NCBI GenBank assembly: GCA_900290295.1
Contig: OMSW01000314.1
Location: 1-32,550 of the forward strand
Direction: 5' to 3'
From: Burkholderiales bacterium
GTDB lineage: Bacteria; Pseudomonadota; Gammaproteobacteria; Burkholderiales; Burkholderiaceae_F
Length of the DNA: 32,550 nt
Part shown: in pieces, positions 10,899 through 32,550 of the stretch
Layout: each line of letters opens with the position of its first letter
Numbering within the stretch: the stretch's first letter is position 1
Position numbers and translations under genes: made by a program
Notes under the pieces: generated by a model
The model's input: only the letters and a program-made list of their open reading frames with translations
The model's database searches: none
Told to the model about the DNA's origin: nothing

Positions 10899-11486
10899 TC
10901 AGCGGATATGGACGAGTTGTGGCTCCATCCCGTTCTCGGACAGCGTACGTCGAATTCCGTTCACATCATCGAGCTGCCCATAGGGCCCGAGCCGGACGCG
11001 GTAGAGCGTTGTCCCTTCGGCCTGCACGGCGGAAACCTTCGCGTCCAGACCCAGTAGCGCCAGACGTGCGCGAATGGCGTCGGCGTCGTCCGCGCTCTTG
11101 TAGGCGCCGACCTGCAGCAGGAACCGTGCGCCCGGCTCCGCCGGTTCGGCGCCGCTCGCCGTTGCCGGGCTCGCTGCGGACCGGGCGGCCGGCCCGGAGC
11201 CCGGGTTGGTATCGGGGATCGGGTTTGCGCTCTCCGGTGCCTCGGAAGGGGCCGCCGCGGACCGGTTGGCCTCGGGCGAGGGCCCGGAGGGAATCTGGGG
11301 CGAGAACAAGGGGCGATTCGGATCGCCCGCGTCCGGCGTGACATTCTCGGTCGAGCGCTGCACCTTGGTGACGAACGGTACCGGGGCGTTGGTCAGGTAC
11401 AGCGCGATGGCGACCGAAATGGCCAGGCCGCTGACGAGTCCGGCGAGAAAGCCGATCAGGCTTATTGGGTGTCGATCGGAAGCCAT
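10899..11486 (-). CDS. membrane-anchored SPOR-domain protein (FtsN-like architecture)
   Basis: A 195-residue protein with a short cytoplasmic N-terminus, one transmembrane helix (about residues 9-31, ISLIGFLAGLVSGLAISVA), a Pro/Ala/Ser-rich periplasmic linker (about 45-118) and a C-terminal SPOR domain (about 120-195) opening with FLLQVGAYKSADDADAIRAR and containing LYRVRLGPYG. SPOR domains bind glycan strands stripped of stem peptides, usually at the division septum. The layout is that of FtsN, and in Burkholderiales this gene commonly lies between argS and dsbA (recalled, not checked here). Its ATG is four bases after the argS stop, so it is probably translationally coupled. Whether it is the essential FtsN or an accessory septal protein cannot be decided. 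Confidence 0.85.
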   Translation of the reverse strand: MASDRHPISLIGFLAGLVSGLAISVAIALYLTNAPVPFVTKVQRSTENVTPDAGDPNRPLFSPQIPSGPSPEANRSAAAPSEAPESANPIPDTNPGSGPAARSAASPATASGAEPAEPGARFLLQVGAYKSADDADAIRARLALLGLDAKVSAVQAEGTTLYRVRLGPYGQLDDVNGIRRTLSENGMEPQLVHIR

Positions 11487-21123: not shown

Positions 21124-24100
21124 TTAGACCTCGGCGGCCACTTGCCCGCCCGACCACTGCGTGCGCAACTGCAGCAGATGCGGCCGCACGCGGGTAGCGC
21201 TTTCTAGCTTCACGTGCCCGAAGCCGCGGATCTCCTCCGGGAAGCTCGCCATGCGAACGGCGAGTCCGAGATTCTCCCGGCCAAGACGAGGCAGGATCTC
21301 CTCGACCATCTGTTCGTAGTCCTGCACCAGCGCGCGTTCCAGTCGACGCTCCTGGGTGTGGGTAAAGGGATCGAAGAGGCTGCCGCGCAGAAACCGCAAT
21401 CGCGCCAGAACCATGAACACGCCCCCGAGCCAGGGGCCGAAGCGGATCTTGCGCGCGTGTCCGGTCACGGGATCGCGCGGCGCCAGCAGCGGCGGTGCAA
21501 GGCTGTAGAAGAGACGGTACTTGCCCGTATAGGCCGCGGCGATGCGGGCGCGAAACTTCGGGTCGCGGTGCAGCCGCGCAACCTCGTACTCGTCCTTTAC
21601 CGCAAGCAGCTTGAAGTAGTTGCGCGCGACCGCTACGGCCAGGTCCGTTCCCTGTCCGACGCGCTCCTTCTCGGCCGCGGCCACGCGTTCGACCATGCGC
21701 AAATAGCGCTGGGCCAGGCGCCCGCTCTGGTAGCCAACTAGGAAATCCGCCCGCAGCGCAACGATCTGTTCGAGCGTCGTCGCCTGGGGGCCCGCCTTGG
21801 CTGCGCCATCCTGCGCCGCGGCGGCCGCCCGCAACACCGCTGGCAAGTCATGTGCCGCCGCCCGGCCCCATTCGAAGGCGCGCTTGTTTGCGTCGATCGC
21901 GACGCCGTTGAGTTCGATGGCCCGCAGCAAGCTTTCATAGCGCAGCGGTATCCAGCCTCTTTGCCACGCGGCGCCGAGCATCAGCGGGTTGGAATAAATT
22001 GCGTCGCCGAGCAGGTCCGTCGCCAGTGCTTGTGCGTCGAGCACGGCGCAGTCGGCGTCATCGGCAAGCGCCTCGCGCACTTGCCGGGCTAGGCTGGCGG
22101 CAGGGAAGCGCCAGTCGCGATTGCGCACGAACTCGGCCGTCGGCGATTGGGAACTGTTCAGAAGTGCGCGCGTTCGGCCTTGCTGGAATTTGCCGAGCAC
22201 CTCGGCACCGGTACTGACGATCAAATCGCAACCCAGCAGCAGGTCGGCCTCCCCCATCGCGATTCGGGTGGCGAACAGCTGCTCCGGCGCAGCGGCGATC
22301 TGTATGTGCGAATGAACCGCCCCTCCCTTTTGCGCCAGCCCCGCCACGTCCAAAACGGAAATCCCGCGCCCCTCGATGTGCGCCGCCATGCCCAGGAGCT
22401 GGCCGATGGTCACCACGCCGGTGCCGCCGACACCGGCGACGATGATCCCGTAGGTCCTGCCTGCGCTCGGCTCGACCGGGACCGGCCACGGCACTTCGGG
22501 AGCCCGGACCTGGCTCATTGACGGCGGGCGCGGCTGCCCGCCCTCGATCGTCACGAAGCTTGGGCAAAAGCCGTTTACGCAAGAAAAGTCCTTATTGCAG
22601 CTCGACTGGTTGATGCGACGCTTGCGTCCAAACTCGGTCTCGACCGGTTCCACCGACAGGCAGTTGGATACCGTGCTGCAGTCGCCGCAGCCTTCGCAGA
22701 TCAGTTCGTTGATCATCACGTGCCGCCGCGGGTCCTCGATCGTGCCGCGCTTGCGCCGGCGGCGCAATTCGGCCGCGCAGGTCTGATCAAATATCAGCGC
22801 CGACACCCCGTTGTATTCGCGCAATTCGATTTGCACGGCATCGAAGCGCTCGCGGGGCTCCACCCGCACCCCGGGAGCGAAGTCGTCGCCCGGCCGATAT
22901 CGCTTGGTGTCCTGCGTGACCACGACGATGCGCTGCACCCCTTCGGCTGCCAGTTGCCGCGTGATCTGCGGCACCGTGAGCGTCCCGTCCAGTGGTTGCC
23001 CGCCGGTCATTGCCACCGCATCGTTGAACAGGATCTTGTAGGTGATGGCAACCTGCGCGGCAACGGCCGCCCGCACGGCAAGGATTCCCGAATGAAAATA
23101 AGTGCCGTCGCCCAGGTTGGCGAAGATGTGCCGCTCGCTCGTAAAGGGCGACTGTCCGATCCACGGCACGCCTTCGCCGCCCATCTGGCTGAAGGTCGAG
23201 GTGTTGCGATCCATCCAGGTGACCATGTAATGGCACCCGATGCCGGCGACGGCGCGCGATCCTTCCGGCACCTTGGTCGAGGTGTTGTGCGGACAGCCCG
23301 AACAGTAATACGGGACGCGCTCGGCAATCGCCCGCGGGACCGCCAGTGCCCGCTCCTTGGCCTCGATGACGGCGATGCGGGCATCGAGGCGCGCGCGAAT
23401 GTCCTGGGGCAGTTCGAGCTTGCCGATGCGTGCTGCGATCGCCTTGGCGACTATGGCCGGTGAAAACTCGTAATGCGCGGGAAGAATCCAGTTTCCTTGT
23501 GGTACCGCCCACTCTCCCCCGTCCTTCTCGTCGAATTTGCCGATGACGCGCGGGATCTTCTTGCCGCTGCCCAGCCACTGGAAAAGTTCCTCCTTCAACT
23601 GGTACTCGATTACCTGCCGTTTTTCCTCGATCACCAGGATTTCCGTCAAGCCCTCGGCAAACTCGCCAATCGTGCGCGCCTCCAGCGGCCAGACCATGCC
23701 GCACTTGAACAGGCGGACGCCGATCTGGCGGCAGGCGCCTTCGTCCAGCCCGAGGTCGACGAGCGCCTGGCGCGTGTCGAGGTAGGCCTTGCCGCTTGCG
23801 ACAATGCCAAAGCGCGCGTGCGGCGAATCGATGACTGTCGCATTGAGCCGATTGGTCCGGCAGTACGCCAGGGCGGCATAGAGCTTGTAATCCAGCAGTC
23901 GCGCCTCCATCTCCAGCGGGCTATCGGGCCAGCGGATATTGAGGCCGCCGGCGGGCATGCGGAAATCCTCGGGCAGCCGTATGTCGACGCGGTCCGGGTC
24001 GACGTCCACCGAGGATGTCGCCTCGACCACTTCGGTGACACACTTAAAGCCGACCCATACCCCGGCGTAGCGGCTCATCGCATAGGCATGCAGGCCCAGA

Positions 24101-24672
24101 TCAAGGTATTCCTGCACCGAGGCCGGGAACAGCACCGGGATCATGCAGGCCTTGAGCAGATGATCCGACTGATGCGGCAAGGTCGAGCTCTTTGCGCCGT
24201 GATCATCGCCGCAGGCCACGATCACGCCGCCACGCGGGCTTGTTCCCGCGGCGTTGGCATGCTTGAAGACATCGCCGCAGCGATCAGCCCCCGGGCCCTT
24301 GCCGTACCACATGCCGAAGACTCCGTCGTAGCGCGCGCCGGCGAACATGTTCACTTGCTGCGTACCCCAGACCGAGGTTGCGGCAAGGTCCTCGTTGACC
24401 CCGGGCCGAAAGTGAATGTGGCTGCGTTCGAGGTGGAGCTTGGCCTTCCATGCCGTTTGATCAACCGCTCCGAGCGGCGATCCGCGGTAACCGGTGAGAA
24501 AACCCGCCGTATTGAGGCCGGCAAGGGCATCGCGCCGGCGCTGCAGCATCAGCAGTCGCACGAGCGCTTGCGTGCCGTTGAGGTAAACGCGGCCGCGATC
24601 GGCCGTCCACTTGTCTTCGAGGGAGACGCTCGCCAGGGCGTGGCGTATCGCGTCGGGAAGAGGAGCGTTCAT
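21124..24672 (-). CDS. fused indolepyruvate ferredoxin oxidoreductase
   Basis: A single 1182-residue chain that combines the alpha (IorA-like) and gamma (IorB-like) parts. It oxidatively decarboxylates aryl- or branched-chain 2-oxo acids to acyl-CoA with ferredoxin. From the N-terminus: a pyrimidine-binding region (YRGSPLGAVDQTAWKAK), a TPP-binding segment near residues 520-555 (FANLGDGTYFHSG, then NDAVAMTGGQPL), iron-sulfur cysteines near 650-690 (CEGCGDCSTVSNC), a 2-oxoacid-oxidoreductase gamma domain near 740-900 (VAGVGGTGVVTIGQ, LAQKGGAVHSHIQ) and a C-terminal DUF6537-type region. The start is ATG at 24672 (MNAPLPDAIRH); the track adds 64 unrelated codons. It fits amino-acid catabolism beside the leucine genes. 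No ferredoxin gene is present in the window. Confidence 0.92.
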   Translation of the reverse strand: MNAPLPDAIRHALASVSLEDKWTADRGRVYLNGTQALVRLLMLQRRRDALAGLNTAGFLTGYRGSPLGAVDQTAWKAKLHLERSHIHFRPGVNEDLAATSVWGTQQVNMFAGARYDGVFGMWYGKGPGADRCGDVFKHANAAGTSPRGGVIVACGDDHGAKSSTLPHQSDHLLKACMIPVLFPASVQEYLDLGLHAYAMSRYAGVWVGFKCVTEVVEATSSVDVDPDRVDIRLPEDFRMPAGGLNIRWPDSPLEMEARLLDYKLYAALAYCRTNRLNATVIDSPHARFGIVASGKAYLDTRQALVDLGLDEGACRQIGVRLFKCGMVWPLEARTIGEFAEGLTEILVIEEKRQVIEYQLKEELFQWLGSGKKIPRVIGKFDEKDGGEWAVPQGNWILPAHYEFSPAIVAKAIAARIGKLELPQDIRARLDARIAVIEAKERALAVPRAIAERVPYYCSGCPHNTSTKVPEGSRAVAGIGCHYMVTWMDRNTSTFSQMGGEGVPWIGQSPFTSERHIFANLGDGTYFHSGILAVRAAVAAQVAITYKILFNDAVAMTGGQPLDGTLTVPQITRQLAAEGVQRIVVVTQDTKRYRPGDDFAPGVRVEPRERFDAVQIELREYNGVSALIFDQTCAAELRRRRKRGTIEDPRRHVMINELICEGCGDCSTVSNCLSVEPVETEFGRKRRINQSSCNKDFSCVNGFCPSFVTIEGGQPRPPSMSQVRAPEVPWPVPVEPSAGRTYGIIVAGVGGTGVVTIGQLLGMAAHIEGRGISVLDVAGLAQKGGAVHSHIQIAAAPEQLFATRIAMGEADLLLGCDLIVSTGAEVLGKFQQGRTRALLNSSQSPTAEFVRNRDWRFPAASLARQVREALADDADCAVLDAQALATDLLGDAIYSNPLMLGAAWQRGWIPLRYESLLRAIELNGVAIDANKRAFEWGRAAAHDLPAVLRAAAAAQDGAAKAGPQATTLEQIVALRADFLVGYQSGRLAQRYLRMVERVAAAEKERVGQGTDLAVAVARNYFKLLAVKDEYEVARLHRDPKFRARIAAAYTGKYRLFYSLAPPLLAPRDPVTGHARKIRFGPWLGGVFMVLARLRFLRGSLFDPFTHTQERRLERALVQDYEQMVEEILPRLGRENLGLAVRMASFPEEIRGFGHVKLESATRVRPHLLQLRTQWSGGQVAAEV

Positions 24673-24686
24673 GCAAGTAGCCTGCA

Positions 24687-24705
24687 CCAAAAATCGTGCT
24701 TTTGG
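24687..24705. promoter_or_regulatory. inverted repeat just upstream of the ferredoxin oxidoreductase gene
   Basis: CCAAAA-N7-TTTTGG, a perfect six-base inverted repeat, lies 15-33 bases before the ATG at 24672. AT-rich arms stand out in this GC-rich stretch. It could be an operator or a hairpin in the mRNA leader near the ribosome-binding site. The rest of the 253-base gap up to gspF holds only a CGCGCTT-GCG-AAGCGCG hairpin (24830-24846) without a T-run. Confidence 0.3.
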
Positions 24706-24925
24706 AAGCGCGCCCGGCGGCTGTTTGGCCCCGGTGCGTGTTGCCGTTTCCCATGGCAGCTGCCTTTTGGGCCGCTGCCCGCCGGAGCACGCAGGATACT
24801 CCGCCGGCTGCGCCGCGATGGGCAGCCGCCGCGCTTGCGAAGCGCGCCCGCGGCAAGGGGCCAAGCACGGCGTAACGCGCGATCACGGAGCACGAGCTCG
24901 CGGCCGAGTTCTTCCGGCTTGCCGC

Positions 24926-26170
24926 TCAGCGGGCCAGCTGATTGATCTCGATGATGGGCATCAGTACCGCGAGCACGATCATCATGACGACCAGGCCCAT
25001 AGTGAGAATCAGCGCGGGCTCGAGCAAGGAGGTGAGCAGCATGGCGCGCCGCTCCGCTTCACGCGCGTGCATATCGGCGGCGCGGGCCAGCATCTCGGGC
25101 AGTTTGCCGGTAGCCTCACCGGAGCCGATCAGGTGAAGCAGCACCGGCGGGAAAAGGCGCAAACGGCCCGACCCGGCCTGACCGTCATCCTCCGCGCGCA
25201 ACGCGCGCGCCAGCGAGGCTCCTTCGCGCACCCGATGCGTGGCATCGACCACGCGCGATCGCAGGGCGAGGTTGGTCACGGTTTCGCCGGCCGCCTGCAG
25301 GCCGCGCAGCATCGGCACGCCCGAGCCGACCAAAATTGACAGCGTGCTCGCAAAGCGCGCCGTGTTGAGCGCGCGCGAGAGCATACCCACCACCGGCAAG
25401 CGCAGGATGCGGCGGTGCCACTGCAGCCGCACGCTTTCGATGCGCAGGGCCCGCGAGATGCCAAAGGCCACAGCGCCGCCCGCCAGAATCAATATCCAGC
25501 CGTAACTGCGCAGGAACGCCGACAGCCCGATCATCACCCGCGTGATCAGCGGCAGCGCCTGCTTCGTCTGCGCGAAAACCTGTACGACCTGGGGGATCAC
25601 GTACGTAAGCAGGAAGACGACGACGAGCAGGGAGACCACGGTCAGGATGGCGGGGTACACGAACGCCAGCAGGATCTTTTGTTGCAGCCGGGCGCGCTCT
25701 TCGATGAAATCGGCCAGGCTGCCGAGCACCGAGCCCAGCTTTCCGGACTCCTCGCCGGCTGCGATCAGGGCGCGGTAAATCGCCGGGAACTGGCGTGGGT
25801 GCCGGGCAAGCGCATTGGACAGCGACATGCCGCCGCGCACCTCGGTGCGAATCGAGGCCATCATCTCGCGCACGGCCTGTTTCTCGCTCTGCTCGACGAG
25901 CACGGTAAGGGCATCGGCGATCGGCAGGGCCGCTGCCATCAGACTGGCGAACTGGCGGGTGAGTACCGCCAGCTCGGTCTGCGACAGGCGGCGTCCGCGC
26001 AGGGCTCCGGGGCCGCGGCGCATGGCCTCGGTTTCCACCGGCTCGACCACGAGCGGGACCAGCGCCTGGCTGCGCAGCATCTGGCGTGCCTGGCGGACGC
26101 TATCGGCCTCCAGTACGCCTACCTGATCCCTGCCCAGACTGTCGGCTGCGGAGTATCGAAAGGCGGTCAT
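24926..26170 (-). CDS. gspF: type II secretion inner-membrane platform protein GspF
   Basis: GspF is the polytopic platform protein that couples the GspE ATPase to pseudopilus assembly. The 414-residue product has the two repeated GspF domains: about 75-200 (LTRQFASLMAAALPIADAL, FPAIYRALIAAGEESGKLG) and about 275-405 (ARFASTLSILVGSGVPMLRG, PPVLLHLIGSGEATGKLPEM), each followed by hydrophobic helices (ILLAFVYPAILTVVSLLVVV; PALILTMGLVVMMIVLAVLM). A usual N-terminal segment is present (MTAFRYSAADSLGRDQVG). Length is normal. It is the last gene of the operon as seen here, 56 bases after gspE. The minor and major pseudopilins and gspC are not encoded downstream and must lie elsewhere, presumably upstream of gspL beyond the window. 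Confidence 0.94.
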   Translation of the reverse strand: MTAFRYSAADSLGRDQVGVLEADSVRQARQMLRSQALVPLVVEPVETEAMRRGPGALRGRRLSQTELAVLTRQFASLMAAALPIADALTVLVEQSEKQAVREMMASIRTEVRGGMSLSNALARHPRQFPAIYRALIAAGEESGKLGSVLGSLADFIEERARLQQKILLAFVYPAILTVVSLLVVVFLLTYVIPQVVQVFAQTKQALPLITRVMIGLSAFLRSYGWILILAGGAVAFGISRALRIESVRLQWHRRILRLPVVGMLSRALNTARFASTLSILVGSGVPMLRGLQAAGETVTNLALRSRVVDATHRVREGASLARALRAEDDGQAGSGRLRLFPPVLLHLIGSGEATGKLPEMLARAADMHAREAERRAMLLTSLLEPALILTMGLVVMMIVLAVLMPIIEINQLAR

Positions 26171-26226: not shown

Positions 26227-27660
26227 TCAGTCGCGCGTGACTCGCAGGATTTCCTCCTGCGAAGTGATTCCGGCGGCGTACCAGCGCATGGCATCGGCAC
26301 GCAATGGAAGCATGCCTGCGGCCTCGGCGGTACGTCGAATCTCCTGGTCATTGGCCGCTGCGTGGATCAGGTCCCGTATCGAATCGTCGACCGGCAGCAG
26401 TTCATAGATGCCGGTGCGCCCGCTGTAGCCGGAATGGCCACATAGCTCGCAGCCGACTGGATGGAACCCGCGTCCGGCCGAATCGGGCTTTTTGCAACGC
26501 GGGCAAAGCTTGCGGATCAGGCGCTGCGCCAAAACGCCAAGCAGGGAAGACGACAGCAGGAACGGTTCGATGCCCATGTCGATGAGGCGGGTGACGGCGG
26601 TCGCGGCGTCGTTGGTGTGCAAGGTGGCCAGAACCAGGTGGCCGGTGAGCGAGGCCTGGACCGCAATCTGGGCGGTTTCCAGATCGCGGATCTCGCCGAT
26701 CATGATGACATCGGGATCCTGGCGCAGTATCGAGCGCAGGGCCCGGGCGAAGTTCATGTCGATCTTCGGGTTGACCTGGGTCTGTCCGACTCCCGGCAGG
26801 TCGTACTCGATCGGGTCCTCCACCGTCATGATGTTGGAGGTCGCGTAATCGAGCCGGCGGATGGCGGCGTACAGCGTCGTCGATTTTCCGGAACCGGTCG
26901 GGCCGGTGACCAGGAGGATCCCGTGCGGCTGGTGAAACAGCTCGTCGAAGATCGCCAGGGTCCGGTCGGACATTCCCAGATTCGTGAGATCGATCCGGGA
27001 AGGATCCTTTTCGAGCAAACGCAGCACGACGCGTTCGCCGTAGCCGGTCGGCAGGGTCGAGACGCGCACGTCGATTGCGCGTCCGCCGACCCGCAGGGTG
27101 ATACGACCATCCTGTGGCAGTCGCTTTTCCGCGATATCCATGGCGGCCATGATCTTGATTCGGGAGACGAGGGCCGCGTGCAACGCCCGCTTGGGACGCA
27201 CAATATCGCGCAAGGTGCCGTCGACCCGGAAGCGCACCAGCGAATACTGCTCAAAGGCTTCCAGATGGATGTCCGAAGCGCCATCCCGCGCGGCGTGGGT
27301 GAGCAGCGCGTTGATCATGCGGATGATCGGCGCGTCGTCCTCGGTCTCGAGCAGATCCTCGATATCCGGCACGTCCTGCATCATGCGCGTGATGTCGATT
27401 TCGCCCTCGATATCACCGACAATTTGCTCCGCCGAATCTTCCGGGCGCGAATAGGTCTGGGCAATCGCCTCGGCAAGCACCTTGGCATCGACGATGCTCG
27501 GTCGCACGCGTCCTGGAAACGCCCGCATCACTTCGTTAAGGGCACCCAGACCGGTGGATTCGGTGATCCAGACCTCGGCCTCCCGATCGCCCTGCGGCTT
27601 GAGCAGGATCGAGTTGTCGCGCGCAAACGCGTACGGCACATATCGTTGCGCCGAGCTCAT
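26227..27660 (-). CDS. gspE: type II secretion ATPase GspE
   Basis: The cytoplasmic ATPase that drives type II secretion (477 residues). Walker A is GPTGSGKST (253-261), the Asp box is NIMTVEDPIEYDLPGVGQ (276-293), Walker B is DVIMIGEIRD (317-326) and the His box is LVLATLHTND. A zinc-binding C-x2-C pair (CPRC at 386-389 and CELC at 404-407) is typical of GspE. The N-terminal N1 domain is short, with QRYVPYAFARDNSILL near the start, and N2 begins around ASDIHLEAFEQ. The ATG overlaps the gspD stop by four bases (ATGA), so the two are translationally coupled. GspL, whose cytoplasmic domain anchors GspE, is encoded four genes upstream. Confidence 0.96.
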   Translation of the reverse strand: MSSAQRYVPYAFARDNSILLKPQGDREAEVWITESTGLGALNEVMRAFPGRVRPSIVDAKVLAEAIAQTYSRPEDSAEQIVGDIEGEIDITRMMQDVPDIEDLLETEDDAPIIRMINALLTHAARDGASDIHLEAFEQYSLVRFRVDGTLRDIVRPKRALHAALVSRIKIMAAMDIAEKRLPQDGRITLRVGGRAIDVRVSTLPTGYGERVVLRLLEKDPSRIDLTNLGMSDRTLAIFDELFHQPHGILLVTGPTGSGKSTTLYAAIRRLDYATSNIMTVEDPIEYDLPGVGQTQVNPKIDMNFARALRSILRQDPDVIMIGEIRDLETAQIAVQASLTGHLVLATLHTNDAATAVTRLIDMGIEPFLLSSSLLGVLAQRLIRKLCPRCKKPDSAGRGFHPVGCELCGHSGYSGRTGIYELLPVDDSIRDLIHAAANDQEIRRTAEAAGMLPLRADAMRWYAAGITSQEEILRVTRD

Positions 27661-30218
27661 GGAACAGACACCTGGCCCGCGCTCACCAGCGAGGGCGAAT
27701 AGCCTAGGCCGCGCAACAGGACGAGCGCTTCCTGGGTGTTGTGCCGGGCATGCGTGACCGTAACGCGCACCCGCACGCTATGGCCCGCGGGCGTATCGAC
27801 CGCTTCCCAATAGGCGTCGAGGCCTTCGTTCTTGAGCTGCTGCTGCAGTTGGCGCGCACGCACAATGGTGTCGACGGTGGCAACCTCGATGATCTGCTCG
27901 TCGGCGCCCTGCGTGACCGGGGCGGCGGGTGTTGGCGCAAGGGCACTCTTGCCGATCGGCGCGTCCGGGCCGGCCGTGCCCGGGAAGGCCGTCGCTGCCC
28001 CGGGTGGCCCCTTGGCGGGCATCGGCGGCAGCGGAGCGATTCCGTAGTTTCCCAGGACCGGGTGGTGTTCCGGCTGCGCCTGCGCAAGCGCGTTACGGAT
28101 GTAATCGTAGCGATCGCTCGCAACCGTGCCGGATGCGGCTTCATCACGGATCACGGTCGGACGCAGGAATACCATCGTCTGCGTCTTGATGTGCTCGCGG
28201 GTGTCGTAGCGAAACAGGTAGCCGAGCAGCGGTATATCGCCCAGCAGTGGAACCTTGTACTGGTTTTCATTGGTTTGATCCGAGATCATGCCGCTGATCA
28301 CGACGAAACTGCCGTCCTCGACCATAACGCTGGTTTCGAAACTTTGCTTGTTGAGCACCAGTTCGGTGCCGCTGGTGCCGGACGAAACCGAGGAATCCTC
28401 GATGTAGATGGTAAGGCGCACCGAGCCGCCCTCCGAAACCTGCGGCTTGACGCGCAATAGCATCCCGACATCCTGGCGCTGGTACGTCTGGAAAGGCGTC
28501 ACCGTCGACCCCGTATTCGTGGTCGTTACCGTGCCGGTATTGGCGTACGAACCGGTAACGATGGGAACGTTTTGGCCGACGAGAAATTTGCCTTCCTCGT
28601 TGTCTAGGGTCTGGATGTTCGGGCGCTGCAGGATGTTGGCATTGGCCGTGGTCTCGAGCGCGCGCGCCAGCAGGGCGATGTTGGTTATCGACCCGATCCC
28701 AGGAACCGTGATCGTGCCCTTGATGACGCCGATGTTCAGACCCTGGCCGAGATTGCCCAGGCTCTCGGCACCACTGATGATGTTCTGGCTGGAATTGCCG
28801 AAATTGGTGCCGCCGACCACGGAGGTGCCGCTGTTATTGAGCCCGTTCAGTGACTGCCACTGGATGCCGAACTCGGAGGACTTGTCCCCGCTCAGTTCCA
28901 CCACCAAGGATTCGATCAGCACCTGCGCCGGCCGTACGTCGAGCTTGTCGACGATCGCGCGAATGTTGCGGTACAGCGGCTCCGGCCCCGAAATGATGAG
29001 CGAATTGGTCGCCGGGTCCGCCTGGATCATGCCCGAGAGCCCGCCAGGGCTGCCGCCGCCGCCGGTGGCCCCGTAGCTTGACGAGGGCGATGGCGTGGCC
29101 GCCGGCCCGCTGGCATTCGGGGTGGCCGGTCCCCCAAAACCCGAGCCGCCGCTGGCTAACGCATTCGAGGAACCGCTGGTCCCGGACAGGCCTGCTCCCA
29201 TTCCGCCGGCTCCTCCGCCGGACAAGCTGATGGTGCCCCCGGCCTGTGACATGAAGGACGGGTCGGAGGAAAGAACCGCACGCAGCAGGGGTGCCATCTT
29301 GGTGGCCTGCGCGTTGCGAAGATAGATCACGTTGATGTTGCCGGGGGTCGCACTGGGCTGGTCGAATTGCGCGATCAGGGCCTTGGCCTGTTCGATCCGA
29401 GCCCGGCTGGCAGCGCGAATTATCAGGCTGTTGCTGCGGGGCTCGGCCTGCACGACGATGCGTTGGCCGGCATCGACGCTTTGTGCGCCAGAGCCCGCGC
29501 CGCCTTCGAGCACGCGGGTGACAATGGTTGCGATATCGGTAGCCAGACCGTATTTCAAGGGCACGACAACCACGTCGGCTGCGGTCGGCGAGTCTATGGC
29601 TTCGATGATGTGTGCCAGCCGCCGCAAGTTTTCCGCATAGTCCGTGATGACCAGGGTGTTGTTGGCAGCGTACGCGGCGATCGTGTTGTTGGGAGCGATC
29701 AACGGTCGCAGTACCGGCACCAGGTTGCTCGCCGATTCGTACTGCAGGCGAAAGACCTGCGTGATGACCTGATCGCCGCGCGGGGTCGTGGTCGCGGGCG
29801 CGAGCACTCGACCGCCCTGTAGCTTTGCGTCGGCTTCGAGCACCACGCGCGCAACGCCGCCGGCATCGGGCGATTCGACCAGCGTGAATCCCTGCAAGCG
29901 CAGCGCCGAGAGCAGTTCCTCGTACGCCTGCCGCCGGGTGACCGGATGCTCGGTCACGAGCGTCATCGTTCCCTTGACCCGCGGGTCGATGACGAAAGAT
30001 CGTCCGGTGTACTGCCCGATTGCGCGCACCACGGCCTCGACGTCGGCATTGACAAAATTCAGTGTCACCGTCTCTTCCGTCGCCTTGACGGAAGACCTTG
30101 TGGCAGGCGTGGCCGAATTGTCGCCAGCGGCAAGCGCCACGGCCGCAGACAGCGCGATGCCGGCGCCTGCAAGGATCGCGGCTCCCGATTGGAGGGGGAA
30201 GGCAAGCCCAATCCTCAT
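27657..30218 (-). CDS. gspD: type II secretion secretin GspD with C-terminal SPOR-like domain
   Basis: GspD forms the outer-membrane channel of the type II system. The 853-residue product has a signal peptide (about 1-31), an N0 domain (about 49-125, VTLNFVNADVEAVVRAIG), N1 (about 151-210), N2 (about 215-288), N3 interrupted by a Gly/Ser/Pro-rich insert (about 326-396) and a secretin domain (about 425-690) with VPLLGDIPLLGYLFR. It then continues through a Pro/Ala linker (about 715-770) into about 80 residues with a SPOR-like pattern (EQIIEVATVDTIVRARQLQQ, then SVRVRVTVTHARHNTQEALV). The usual pilotin-binding S domain is not recognisable. The start is ATG one base after the gspN stop, and the stop overlaps gspE. 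The SPOR call is by eye and needs a profile search. Confidence 0.93.
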   Translation of the reverse strand: MRIGLAFPLQSGAAILAGAGIALSAAVALAAGDNSATPATRSSVKATEETVTLNFVNADVEAVVRAIGQYTGRSFVIDPRVKGTMTLVTEHPVTRRQAYEELLSALRLQGFTLVESPDAGGVARVVLEADAKLQGGRVLAPATTTPRGDQVITQVFRLQYESASNLVPVLRPLIAPNNTIAAYAANNTLVITDYAENLRRLAHIIEAIDSPTAADVVVVPLKYGLATDIATIVTRVLEGGAGSGAQSVDAGQRIVVQAEPRSNSLIIRAASRARIEQAKALIAQFDQPSATPGNINVIYLRNAQATKMAPLLRAVLSSDPSFMSQAGGTISLSGGGAGGMGAGLSGTSGSSNALASGGSGFGGPATPNASGPAATPSPSSSYGATGGGGSPGGLSGMIQADPATNSLIISGPEPLYRNIRAIVDKLDVRPAQVLIESLVVELSGDKSSEFGIQWQSLNGLNNSGTSVVGGTNFGNSSQNIISGAESLGNLGQGLNIGVIKGTITVPGIGSITNIALLARALETTANANILQRPNIQTLDNEEGKFLVGQNVPIVTGSYANTGTVTTTNTGSTVTPFQTYQRQDVGMLLRVKPQVSEGGSVRLTIYIEDSSVSSGTSGTELVLNKQSFETSVMVEDGSFVVISGMISDQTNENQYKVPLLGDIPLLGYLFRYDTREHIKTQTMVFLRPTVIRDEAASGTVASDRYDYIRNALAQAQPEHHPVLGNYGIAPLPPMPAKGPPGAATAFPGTAGPDAPIGKSALAPTPAAPVTQGADEQIIEVATVDTIVRARQLQQQLKNEGLDAYWEAVDTPAGHSVRVRVTVTHARHNTQEALVLLRGLGYSPSLVSAGQVSVP

Positions 30219-30219
30219 T

Positions 30220-31008
30220 TCATGTTCCGAAGTTCAATATGGCTCCGTCGCCATCGCGCCGGCCCAACAAAGAGATCAGGCCGGACAGTTGCGTTGCGAC
30301 GGCCGCGTCCGTTCCGGGTTGCACGCGAGCTATCCCCCGGAAGCGCAAACGCCGGCCGTCCACGATTGTGCCACTGCCAGTCATTTCCATGGGCCCGGAA
30401 ATCGTTTCCAATTGCACCTGGGCGCCGGCGAAGACGCCATCGGCTTGCAGACGGTAATGGCCGAACGGCACGACGGGGCTCAGACCGCTGGATGCGCCGA
30501 CCCATTCCGCGCTCAGGTGCCCGCGCAGCGCACCGGACTGCAGGTGCAGCGTATCCCATTCGAGCTCGATATCGCCACCGGGCCGAATCGTATTCCACGG
30601 CGCGCCCAGCCCGACGAGTACCCCGGCCGGCAAACGCAACCGGCCGGGCTCGACGGTGGCATTTGCCTTCCAGTCCACCCGCAGCGCCAGGGGCACGTCG
30701 CTCGCCGCCGCGTTTGTCAAAGTCAGATCCAAGGCCCCGATCAGTAGGCGCCACGGGTCAATGTGCCAGGAGGTGCGGCCGGGGAGTCTCGTGCGAAAGG
30801 ATGAGCCGCGATCGCCGCTTGCTAGGATGAGGTCCGCCTGACCGTCCCAAACCGTCCCCGACGGATCGCCCAGTTCGACCCGCTCGCTGGTCCAGGAGTT
30901 CACCGCGCTGGCCAAAAGACTCGCCGGGGCCTGCGTGAGAACGACAAGGACGGCGCCGGCTAGCGCAGCGGCCAGTATCGCAAACCTGCGCCCGAGGTGA
31001 TTGCTCAT
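30220..31008 (-). CDS. gspN: type II secretion protein GspN
   Basis: GspN is an accessory inner-membrane-anchored periplasmic protein found in some type II systems; its exact job is unsettled. The 262-residue product has one N-terminal helix (about 10-32, FAILAAALAGAVLVVLTQ) and a beta-rich periplasmic domain with the family segments GDPSGTVWDGQADLIL, LPGRTSWHIDPWRLLIGAL and EMTGSGTIVDGRRLRFRG. Its length is normal. It follows gspM by 30 bases and precedes gspD by one base. The order gspM-gspN-gspD, with the secretin after N, differs from the common order that starts with C and D. Confidence 0.88.
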   Translation of the reverse strand: MSNHLGRRFAILAAALAGAVLVVLTQAPASLLASAVNSWTSERVELGDPSGTVWDGQADLILASGDRGSSFRTRLPGRTSWHIDPWRLLIGALDLTLTNAAASDVPLALRVDWKANATVEPGRLRLPAGVLVGLGAPWNTIRPGGDIELEWDTLHLQSGALRGHLSAEWVGASSGLSPVVPFGHYRLQADGVFAGAQVQLETISGPMEMTGSGTIVDGRRLRFRGIARVQPGTDAAVATQLSGLISLLGRRDGDGAILNFGT

Positions 31009-31038: not shown

Positions 31039-31536
31039 TCAGGCCCGCGGCAAGCGCAGCGACAGCTCGATATCGGCGTTGCCTGCCGTGGCATTGGCCT
31101 TGGCGCTCACGGCAACGGTATGCACTCCCAGCGTACGCTCGCTTGCAGCGAGCCAGGTCGTCCATTTGCTGTACGGCACGTTGACGAAGCTCAGGTGCAG
31201 GTCACCGTTGGCGAGGGGGACGTTGCGCGATGGCTTCAGGCCGGCGGTTTCCAGCGACTTGTCCAGGGCGGAGCGTGCGTCCAAGGAGCCGGGCGCGGCT
31301 GCCGGCGGCAGGCTGCGCAGGGCCTTGGCCTCGGTTACCATCGCTTCGAGTTGCGCCGCCTGGGCGCGTGTCTGCGGCAGCAGCCGCTGCAACTTGGCTA
31401 CCCCGCTGGCGGCCGGCTCGATGAATGCGAGGTAGAGCACGATCGCAGCGAGTACGGCGCCGCCGATTGCCAGGATGCGCTGCTCGCGCGGCGCCCGCTC
31501 GGACCAGAATTGCGCGAGGATTTTGGCGAAACTCAT
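31039..31536 (-). CDS. gspM: type II secretion protein GspM
   Basis: GspM is a bitopic inner-membrane protein that pairs with GspL in the secretion platform. The 165-residue product has a short cytoplasmic N-terminus (MSFAKILAQFWSERAPREQR), one transmembrane helix (about 21-39, ILAIGGAVLAAIVLYLAFI), a coiled-coil stretch (about 45-75) and a small ferredoxin-like periplasmic domain (about 88-163) ending in IELSLRLPRA. The WSERAPREQRIL pattern before the helix is typical of the family. The ATG at 31536 lies three bases after the gspL stop. Sequence identity in this family is low, so position between gspL and gspN is part of the evidence. Confidence 0.88.
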   Translation of the reverse strand: MSFAKILAQFWSERAPREQRILAIGGAVLAAIVLYLAFIEPAASGVAKLQRLLPQTRAQAAQLEAMVTEAKALRSLPPAAAPGSLDARSALDKSLETAGLKPSRNVPLANGDLHLSFVNVPYSKWTTWLAASERTLGVHTVAVSAKANATAGNADIELSLRLPRA

Positions 31537-31539
31537 GCT

Positions 31540-32550
31540 CTAGCCGCCCAGCGGCGCCAGATGCGCCGCGCCGTCCGCATCAAAGCGCAGCGTCAAGCCC
31601 CGCGCCATCGCGCGCGCCTGCAGGGAATTGCGCAATTCCGGTCGGTCGACGCTGCCGGGCTTGAATCGGACCACATAGTTGCGATCGGTGTATTCGATCG
31701 CCGCCACGATCCCCACCGGCGCACTGGCGAAGACCTGCAGTGCCTGCGAATTGAGCACAGAAAAGTCATCGGTGGAGGGGCGCCCGACCCGTGTCCGCAA
31801 TGCCGCCACGGAACGCTTGGCCTGCGCAAGTTCATCTTCGATGGTCGTTTCGTTCGGAAAAGCGTCGCGAAAGGCGTGCCGCATCGACTGACGCAAGTCG
31901 GTGAATTGGGAGTCCAGTTTCAGCCAGTACGCGTTCAGGCCACCGATCGCGATCGCCGCGCAGATGCCGATCCAGGCAGCCGGGGCCTTCCAGGTTCCGT
32001 GGCGGGTGAGCCGTGCGAGGATCCGTCCCGTGAAGCCGAAACCGCCACCGGATGCGTACGATCCTTGCAGCAGGTTCACGGAGTCGGCAATCGAATTGAT
32101 GTCGATCTCACGCCGGGCTTCCTCCAGCTCCAAACCGAGCGCCGCCGCGACCGATCGCAAGCCGTCAGTGGCTTGACCGTAGACACGCAGGCGTGACACC
32201 GCGAGCTGGTGCTTGGCCAGGGCAATTGCTCCCGGGGCGCCGTCGGCCAGATCAAATGCGCAGCCCTGGTCCGCGCCGGTGCGCATAACGCCACGGCCCC
32301 GATCGCTGCGCAGGCAAAGCGTGCCCTCGCGCGGGCGCGGCAGGGTGTAGATCTCGCTGTAGGCAGCGCGCGGCTGCAACTGCGCCTGGGCGCATGCCTC
32401 CAAGGTGCGTGCCAGGGTCGCCTGGTCGATGGCCGCCACCGAAATCCACGCGATCTCGGGCGCACCGCTGGTCCCGGTGTCCTGCGCGCTCCCGGCGGTC
32501 GGCATCGACGCGAAATGGCAATCGGCCGGGTCGACGAGCATGCGCTCCTC
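31540..32550 (-). CDS. gspL: type II secretion protein GspL (5' end outside the window)
   Basis: GspL recruits the GspE ATPase to the inner membrane and binds GspM. The frame is open to the right edge of the window: three more codons (Glu-Glu-Arg) precede the first ATG of the track, and the sequence there (EERMLVDPADCHFA) matches the end of the first actin-like subdomain of GspL, so about 80-100 N-terminal residues lie outside. The visible 336 residues hold the rest of the cytoplasmic domain, one transmembrane helix (AWIGICAAIAIGGLNAYWL) and a periplasmic ferredoxin-like domain ending in RFDADGAAHLAPLGG. The ATG at 32541 in the track should not be taken as the true start. Confidence 0.88.
   Translation of the reverse strand, partial: EERMLVDPADCHFASMPTAGSAQDTGTSGAPEIAWISVAAIDQATLARTLEACAQAQLQPRAAYSEIYTLPRPREGTLCLRSDRGRGVMRTGADQGCAFDLADGAPGAIALAKHQLAVSRLRVYGQATDGLRSVAAALGLELEEARREIDINSIADSVNLLQGSYASGGGFGFTGRILARLTRHGTWKAPAAWIGICAAIAIGGLNAYWLKLDSQFTDLRQSMRHAFRDAFPNETTIEDELAQAKRSVAALRTRVGRPSTDDFSVLNSQALQVFASAPVGIVAAIEYTDRNYVVRFKPGSVDRPELRNSLQARAMARGLTLRFDADGAAHLAPLGG

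Follow-up and report, generated by a model that had tools for sequence, protein, structure and literature searches.

A C-terminal SPOR domain on the type II secretion secretin GspD of a Burkholderiales family

A type II secretion locus with an extended GspD

The stretch of DNA analyzed here, a 32,550-nucleotide region referred to as the window, carries part of a type II secretion system (T2SS) operon in which gspD is accompanied by gspL, gspM, gspN, gspE and gspF, all recognized by profile (Table 1). The gspD product scores 597.7 bits against TIGR02517, for which the cut-off is 351, and its N0, three Secretin_N and Secretin domains all exceed the curated Pfam cut-offs. The start codon of gspE (ATG) and the stop codon of gspD overlap by 4 bases. 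From reading of the sequence, K-, J-, I-, H- and G-like ORFs continue collinearly past the window, and a divergent gspC-like ORF (PF11356) lies near the contig end. The break in gspL is a short run of Ns in locus L172 that falls beyond the window end and inside the start of the gene. On the other side of the operon, gspF adjoins a very long minus-strand ORF (21124-24864) that by eye resembles indolepyruvate ferredoxin oxidoreductase.

Table 1. Features of the gspD locus and of a second GspD with a C-terminal SPOR domain. Positions refer to the window unless a locus is named.
Feature	Position	Strand	Basis
gspD, type II secretin with C-terminal SPOR, 853 aa	27657..30218	-	TIGR02517, PF21305 (N0), PF03958 (three), PF00263
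N0-N3 and secretin core, residues ~48-700	28119..30077	-	Pfam domains; aligned to GspD cryo-EM entries, e.g. 5wln, 5zdh
Conserved S-like segment SDRYDYIRNALAQAQPEHHPVLGNYGIAPLP, residues ~701-731, C-terminal to secretin domain	28026..28118	-	Common to nearly all related GspDs; PDB alignments
Pro/Ala-rich linker, residues ~732-773	27900..28025	-	49% Pro+Ala
SPOR domain, residues ~774-847	27678..27899	-	PF05036; A1 profile 114.8 bits; AF2 model; Foldseek to RlpA
gspE ATPase	26227..27660	-	PF00437 488.6 bits
gspF	24926..26170	-	PF00482
gspN	30220..31008	-	PF01203
gspM	31039..31536	-	PF04612
gspL, 5' end interrupted by assembly gap just outside window	31540..32541	-	TIGR01709 114.9 bits
P0002, XcpQ-like GspD, other gammaproteobacterial family, canonical C-terminal SPOR	L226 831-3083	+	

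The C-terminal tail of the window GspD is a SPOR domain. The window sequence taken alone is a marginal match, with the isolated tail scoring 21.1-21.5 bits against PF05036, borderline for a cut-off of 21, and the whole protein 18.2 bits, which is below it. The assignment extends beyond this one marginal score because 13 of 14 homologous tails match PF05036 at E<=1 (best E 1e-11), the window tail scores 36.7 bits (iE 3.7e-11) with a SPOR model derived solely from DedD, FtsN and RlpA sequences, and an AlphaFold2 (AF2) model of the tail from a 14-sequence alignment (mean pLDDT 84.7) has its elements in the order E-H-E-E-H-E. In a Foldseek search of this model against the PDB, the first rank is held by the RlpA SPOR domain with denuded glycan (6i09; E 9.3e-4, probability 1.00, TM 0.78), and ranks two and three are SPOR domains as well (RlpA 6i05 and CwlC 1x60). 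The fold search is decisive, since phmmer with the tail alone returned no matches in the PDB and a tail profile reached a single SPOR domain there, that of DedD, only weakly (E 0.044). An earlier note on this DNA, made from the sequence alone, had proposed a SPOR-like C terminus on GspD from a beta-alpha-beta-beta-alpha-beta pattern and had suggested a PF05036 search and a structure prediction; both bear the proposal out, the modeled elements follow the same order, and the segments quoted lie where it placed them, at residues ~771-853.

A known secretin C-terminal domain is ruled out as the identity of the tail, as solved GspD structures align into the S-like segment and only to residue ~710-720. 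Matches of the window GspD to DUF3313 (17.5 bits) and T2SSI (13.3 bits) are rejected, being below their own cut-offs and without backing from homologues. No family corresponding to the tail is present in NCBIfam or PHROGs, and neither Pfam nor the DedD/FtsN/RlpA model gives an N-terminal SPOR match in the window GspD. A second SPOR protein is encoded elsewhere in the window (10899-11486, minus strand); it is FtsN-like, matches PF05036 with 57 bits and lies between argS-like and dsbA-like genes.

Distribution, loss and origin of the SPOR tail

The earlier note also raised the question of whether Burkholderiales GspDs share the tail. The tail is carried by 17 GspDs from about nine genera of the same family as the window, but by none of 79 related GspDs outside the family (genome_contigs; chiefly from other Burkholderiales and from Pseudomonas). 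For the majority of the family's remaining genera there was no GspD match at all. When the tail profile was searched against 399 genomes of the order, the matches examined from outside the family were only DedDs. In the tree of GspD cores the family forms one clade (support 100/99), on which the presence of SPOR requires three changes; these are best interpreted as a single gain at its root and two losses, one in four congeners and one in G017. Where the domain was lost, the stop codon of gspD adjoins the start codon of gspE, and a search of this junction in SPOR-less congeners revealed no pseudogene remnants of SPOR. The loss of SPOR in two lineages with an intact gspD-gspE junction indicates that the domain is dispensable. 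In one genome (G078, locus L130) the SPOR copy is degraded and scores 20.5 bits while other members of the genus keep the tail, and a loss may possibly be under way there.

Comparison of two congeners (G000 and G004) gives a dN/dS of ~0.31 for the SPOR segment. The core has a value of 0.17 and the linker one of 0.66, the latter a rough figure from 27 codons. The SPOR segment is under purifying selection and so has been preserved, with less constraint than the core. The two losses, the clearly degraded L130 copy and the faster evolution of SPOR relative to the core would fit a functionless fusion that is decaying or neutral. Such a fusion is nevertheless very unlikely in view of the lower dN/dS relative to the linker, the retention of the domain with invariant positions across about nine genera, and its apparently separate acquisition in a second family.

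The nearest non-GspD SPOR domains in the sampled genomes are all encoded beside folC and/or cvpA, which identifies them as DedD, and DedD is the probable source of the SPOR domain in the window's GspD lineage. The DedDs of the folC-dedD-cvpA cluster are the closest SPOR sequences to the GspD tails; they differ in being small inner-membrane proteins and in having a Gly-Pro turn that is absent from the tails of the window's lineage. A 615-residue SPOR ORF in G404, considered as a possible secretin, was ruled out as such, being a DedD that contains a lengthy stretch of charged repeats.

Among GspDs sampled across the class there is one more C-terminal SPOR domain, that of P0002 in G613, which belongs to a different family. 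This protein of 750 residues matches PF05036 with 75.6 bits at residues 676-746 and has the canonical Gln and Gly-Pro. In the 80 genomes of this second family that were searched there are five GspDs with C-terminal SPOR domains, four of them congeneric and the fifth from a different genus, the related loci besides L226 being L229-L231 and L260. The end of gspD in the second family lies ~3.7 kb from a dedD gene that adjoins folC and cvpA, and the G613 GspD tail shares 56-61% identity with the neighboring DedD SPOR domains of the same genus; the SPOR domain was probably copied from the nearby dedD. In the SPOR tree the second-family tails group with the DedDs of their own family (100/100 for the joint group), and those of the window's family make up a separate clade (100/99). 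Forcing all GspD tails into one clade costs 27 log units with a p-AU of 0.060 on 75 columns, so that the SPOR tree alone does not formally reject a single origin. Two independent acquisitions are the best reading, short of formal proof, given the nesting of the second group with its own family's DedDs and the taxonomy.

Residues at the glycan site

In the SPOR domain of RlpA from Pseudomonas aeruginosa (6i05, 6i09), direct polar side-chain contacts with the glycan are made by Q270, R302 and R309 only, most other contacts being through the backbone, and R311 completes the basic patch (PMC6895207). The window tail shares the fold of this domain and keeps the R309 and R311 equivalents, but the equivalents of Q270, F274 and R302 are changed. 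In the sequence alignment the R309 and R311 equivalents are each found in 16 of 17 GspD tails. The position of Q270 is occupied by Gln in 11 of the 17, by Glu in five, the window copy among them, and by Ser in one. The R302 equivalent occurs in none of the 17 tails, nor in any of 43 DedDs. The window copy has Val at the F274 equivalent. All 17 tails of the window's lineage have lost the Gly-Pro that follows strand 3; at this position in the 43 DedDs Gly is invariant and Pro nearly so. Given the Glu and Val of the window copy and the lineage-wide absence of the Gly-Pro, denuded glycan may be bound more weakly or in an altered manner. Judged by side chains, the case for glycan binding would be mixed where the window protein is concerned, and fair across its lineage.

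These substitutions bear on a different explanation, in which the SPOR fold was kept after denuded glycan binding was lost and was reused as a protein-protein module, for instance for contacts with a partner from the T2SS or the division machinery, with a pilotin-like factor or with the neighboring subunit. The lineage-wide disappearance of the Gly-Pro turn and the replacement of Gln in six tails point in this direction, as do conserved positions particular to the tails (e.g. Q19, L22, G26 and P69 of alignment A1) and a reported interaction of E. coli DedD with PBP1A/1B (PMC7642682). Set against these are the near-universal arginines of the basic patch and the canonical Gln and Gly-Pro of the second lineage, and reuse as a protein-protein module is considered rather unlikely.

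Probable peptidoglycan anchoring and placement of the secretin

The preferred reading, at a probability of about 0.6, is that the SPOR domain of GspD, derived from a DedD-type protein and carried on its linker, functions as a peptidoglycan anchor and placement device for the secretion channel. A cell-division SPOR domain of the DedD type would have been placed on a flexible Pro/Ala linker beyond the S-like segment; the length of this linker ranges from ~15 to ~212 residues in relatives. The C terminus of the assembled secretin is periplasmic, so that the tails would be displayed close to the outer membrane. With 15 subunits in the T2SS secretin channel (PMC9239104), up to 15 SPOR domains could be presented by each channel and bind glycan strands of the peptidoglycan, and the resulting avidity could offset weak single sites. 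Binding of this kind would fix the channel to the wall and could bias its insertion to places with many peptide-free strands, such as the septum and new poles. Tethering of the secretin to peptidoglycan by its SPOR tail, as proposed in the earlier note, is plausible. The predicted placement is comparable to that of PilQ in type IV pili, where the AMIN domains attach to peptidoglycan and guide the pilus machinery to midcell (PMC5285504). PilQ is a direct functional analogue, being a secretin with its own peptidoglycan-binding domains and placement at division sites, and differs in that its domains are of the AMIN type, are N-terminal and belong to the type IV pilus system.

The further idea of the earlier note, that the SPOR tail might make the S domain and its pilotin unnecessary, is not supported. 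The S-like segment (SDRYDYIR...LPP) is kept in GspDs with and without SPOR. No pilotin of the PulS/OutS (PF09691) or AspS (PF16549) type was found in nine family genomes, SPOR-less congeners included, in a search for which the E. coli control was positive. GspB is present in three of the nine, all of them SPOR-bearing, and was not found in the window's own genome, the assembly of which is 88% complete. The presence of SPOR does not track the lack of pilotin or GspB, as the SPOR-less congeners also have no such pilotins and GspB occurs in three SPOR-bearing genomes. A substitution of the SPOR tail for the pilotin and S-domain route of outer-membrane targeting would account for the missing pilotins, but is highly improbable given the retained S-like segment, the equal lack of these pilotins in SPOR-less congeners, including the one-contig genome G002, and the co-occurrence with GspB. 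The GspA/GspB scaffold of other T2SSs is an alternative means of anchoring the secretin to peptidoglycan (PMC9239104), and differs in consisting of separate proteins.

The earlier note knew of no characterized GspD of such layout, which stands for the C-terminal position and does not extend to SPOR-bearing secretins in general. A SPOR domain on a T2SS secretin has already been reported for Legionella LspD, where it is N-terminal and proposed to bind peptidoglycan (PMC9239104, PMC6617341). Both proteins are type II secretins with SPOR, but the domain of LspD precedes N0 and that of the window GspD follows the S-like segment on a linker. The C-terminal position appears to be new, no description of it having been found in a literature search that covered few subscription journals. 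Closely related GspDs that have or lack SPOR, together with the second case near dedD, form a natural set for testing how a large secretin passes through peptidoglycan and is held there, a question still debated for most T2SSs and above all for those that have neither GspAB nor a known pilotin. A broader and more tentative proposal, possible though less than probable, is that SPOR domains recruited from the host's own dedD have repeatedly and independently been fused to the C terminus of T2SS secretins as a means of anchoring them to peptidoglycan and division sites, and that the site in the window's lineage has diverged toward another glycan form or ligand.

Other unusual C termini were seen among the GspDs examined. 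The minus-strand ORF at 428-3253 of L214 encodes a GspD of 942 residues with ~270 extra C-terminal residues, the end of which appears AMIN-like by eye and has no Pfam match at 0.01. A plus-strand ORF of 757 residues in L223 (G453) encodes a GspD with a long poly-lysine run in its C-terminal tail.
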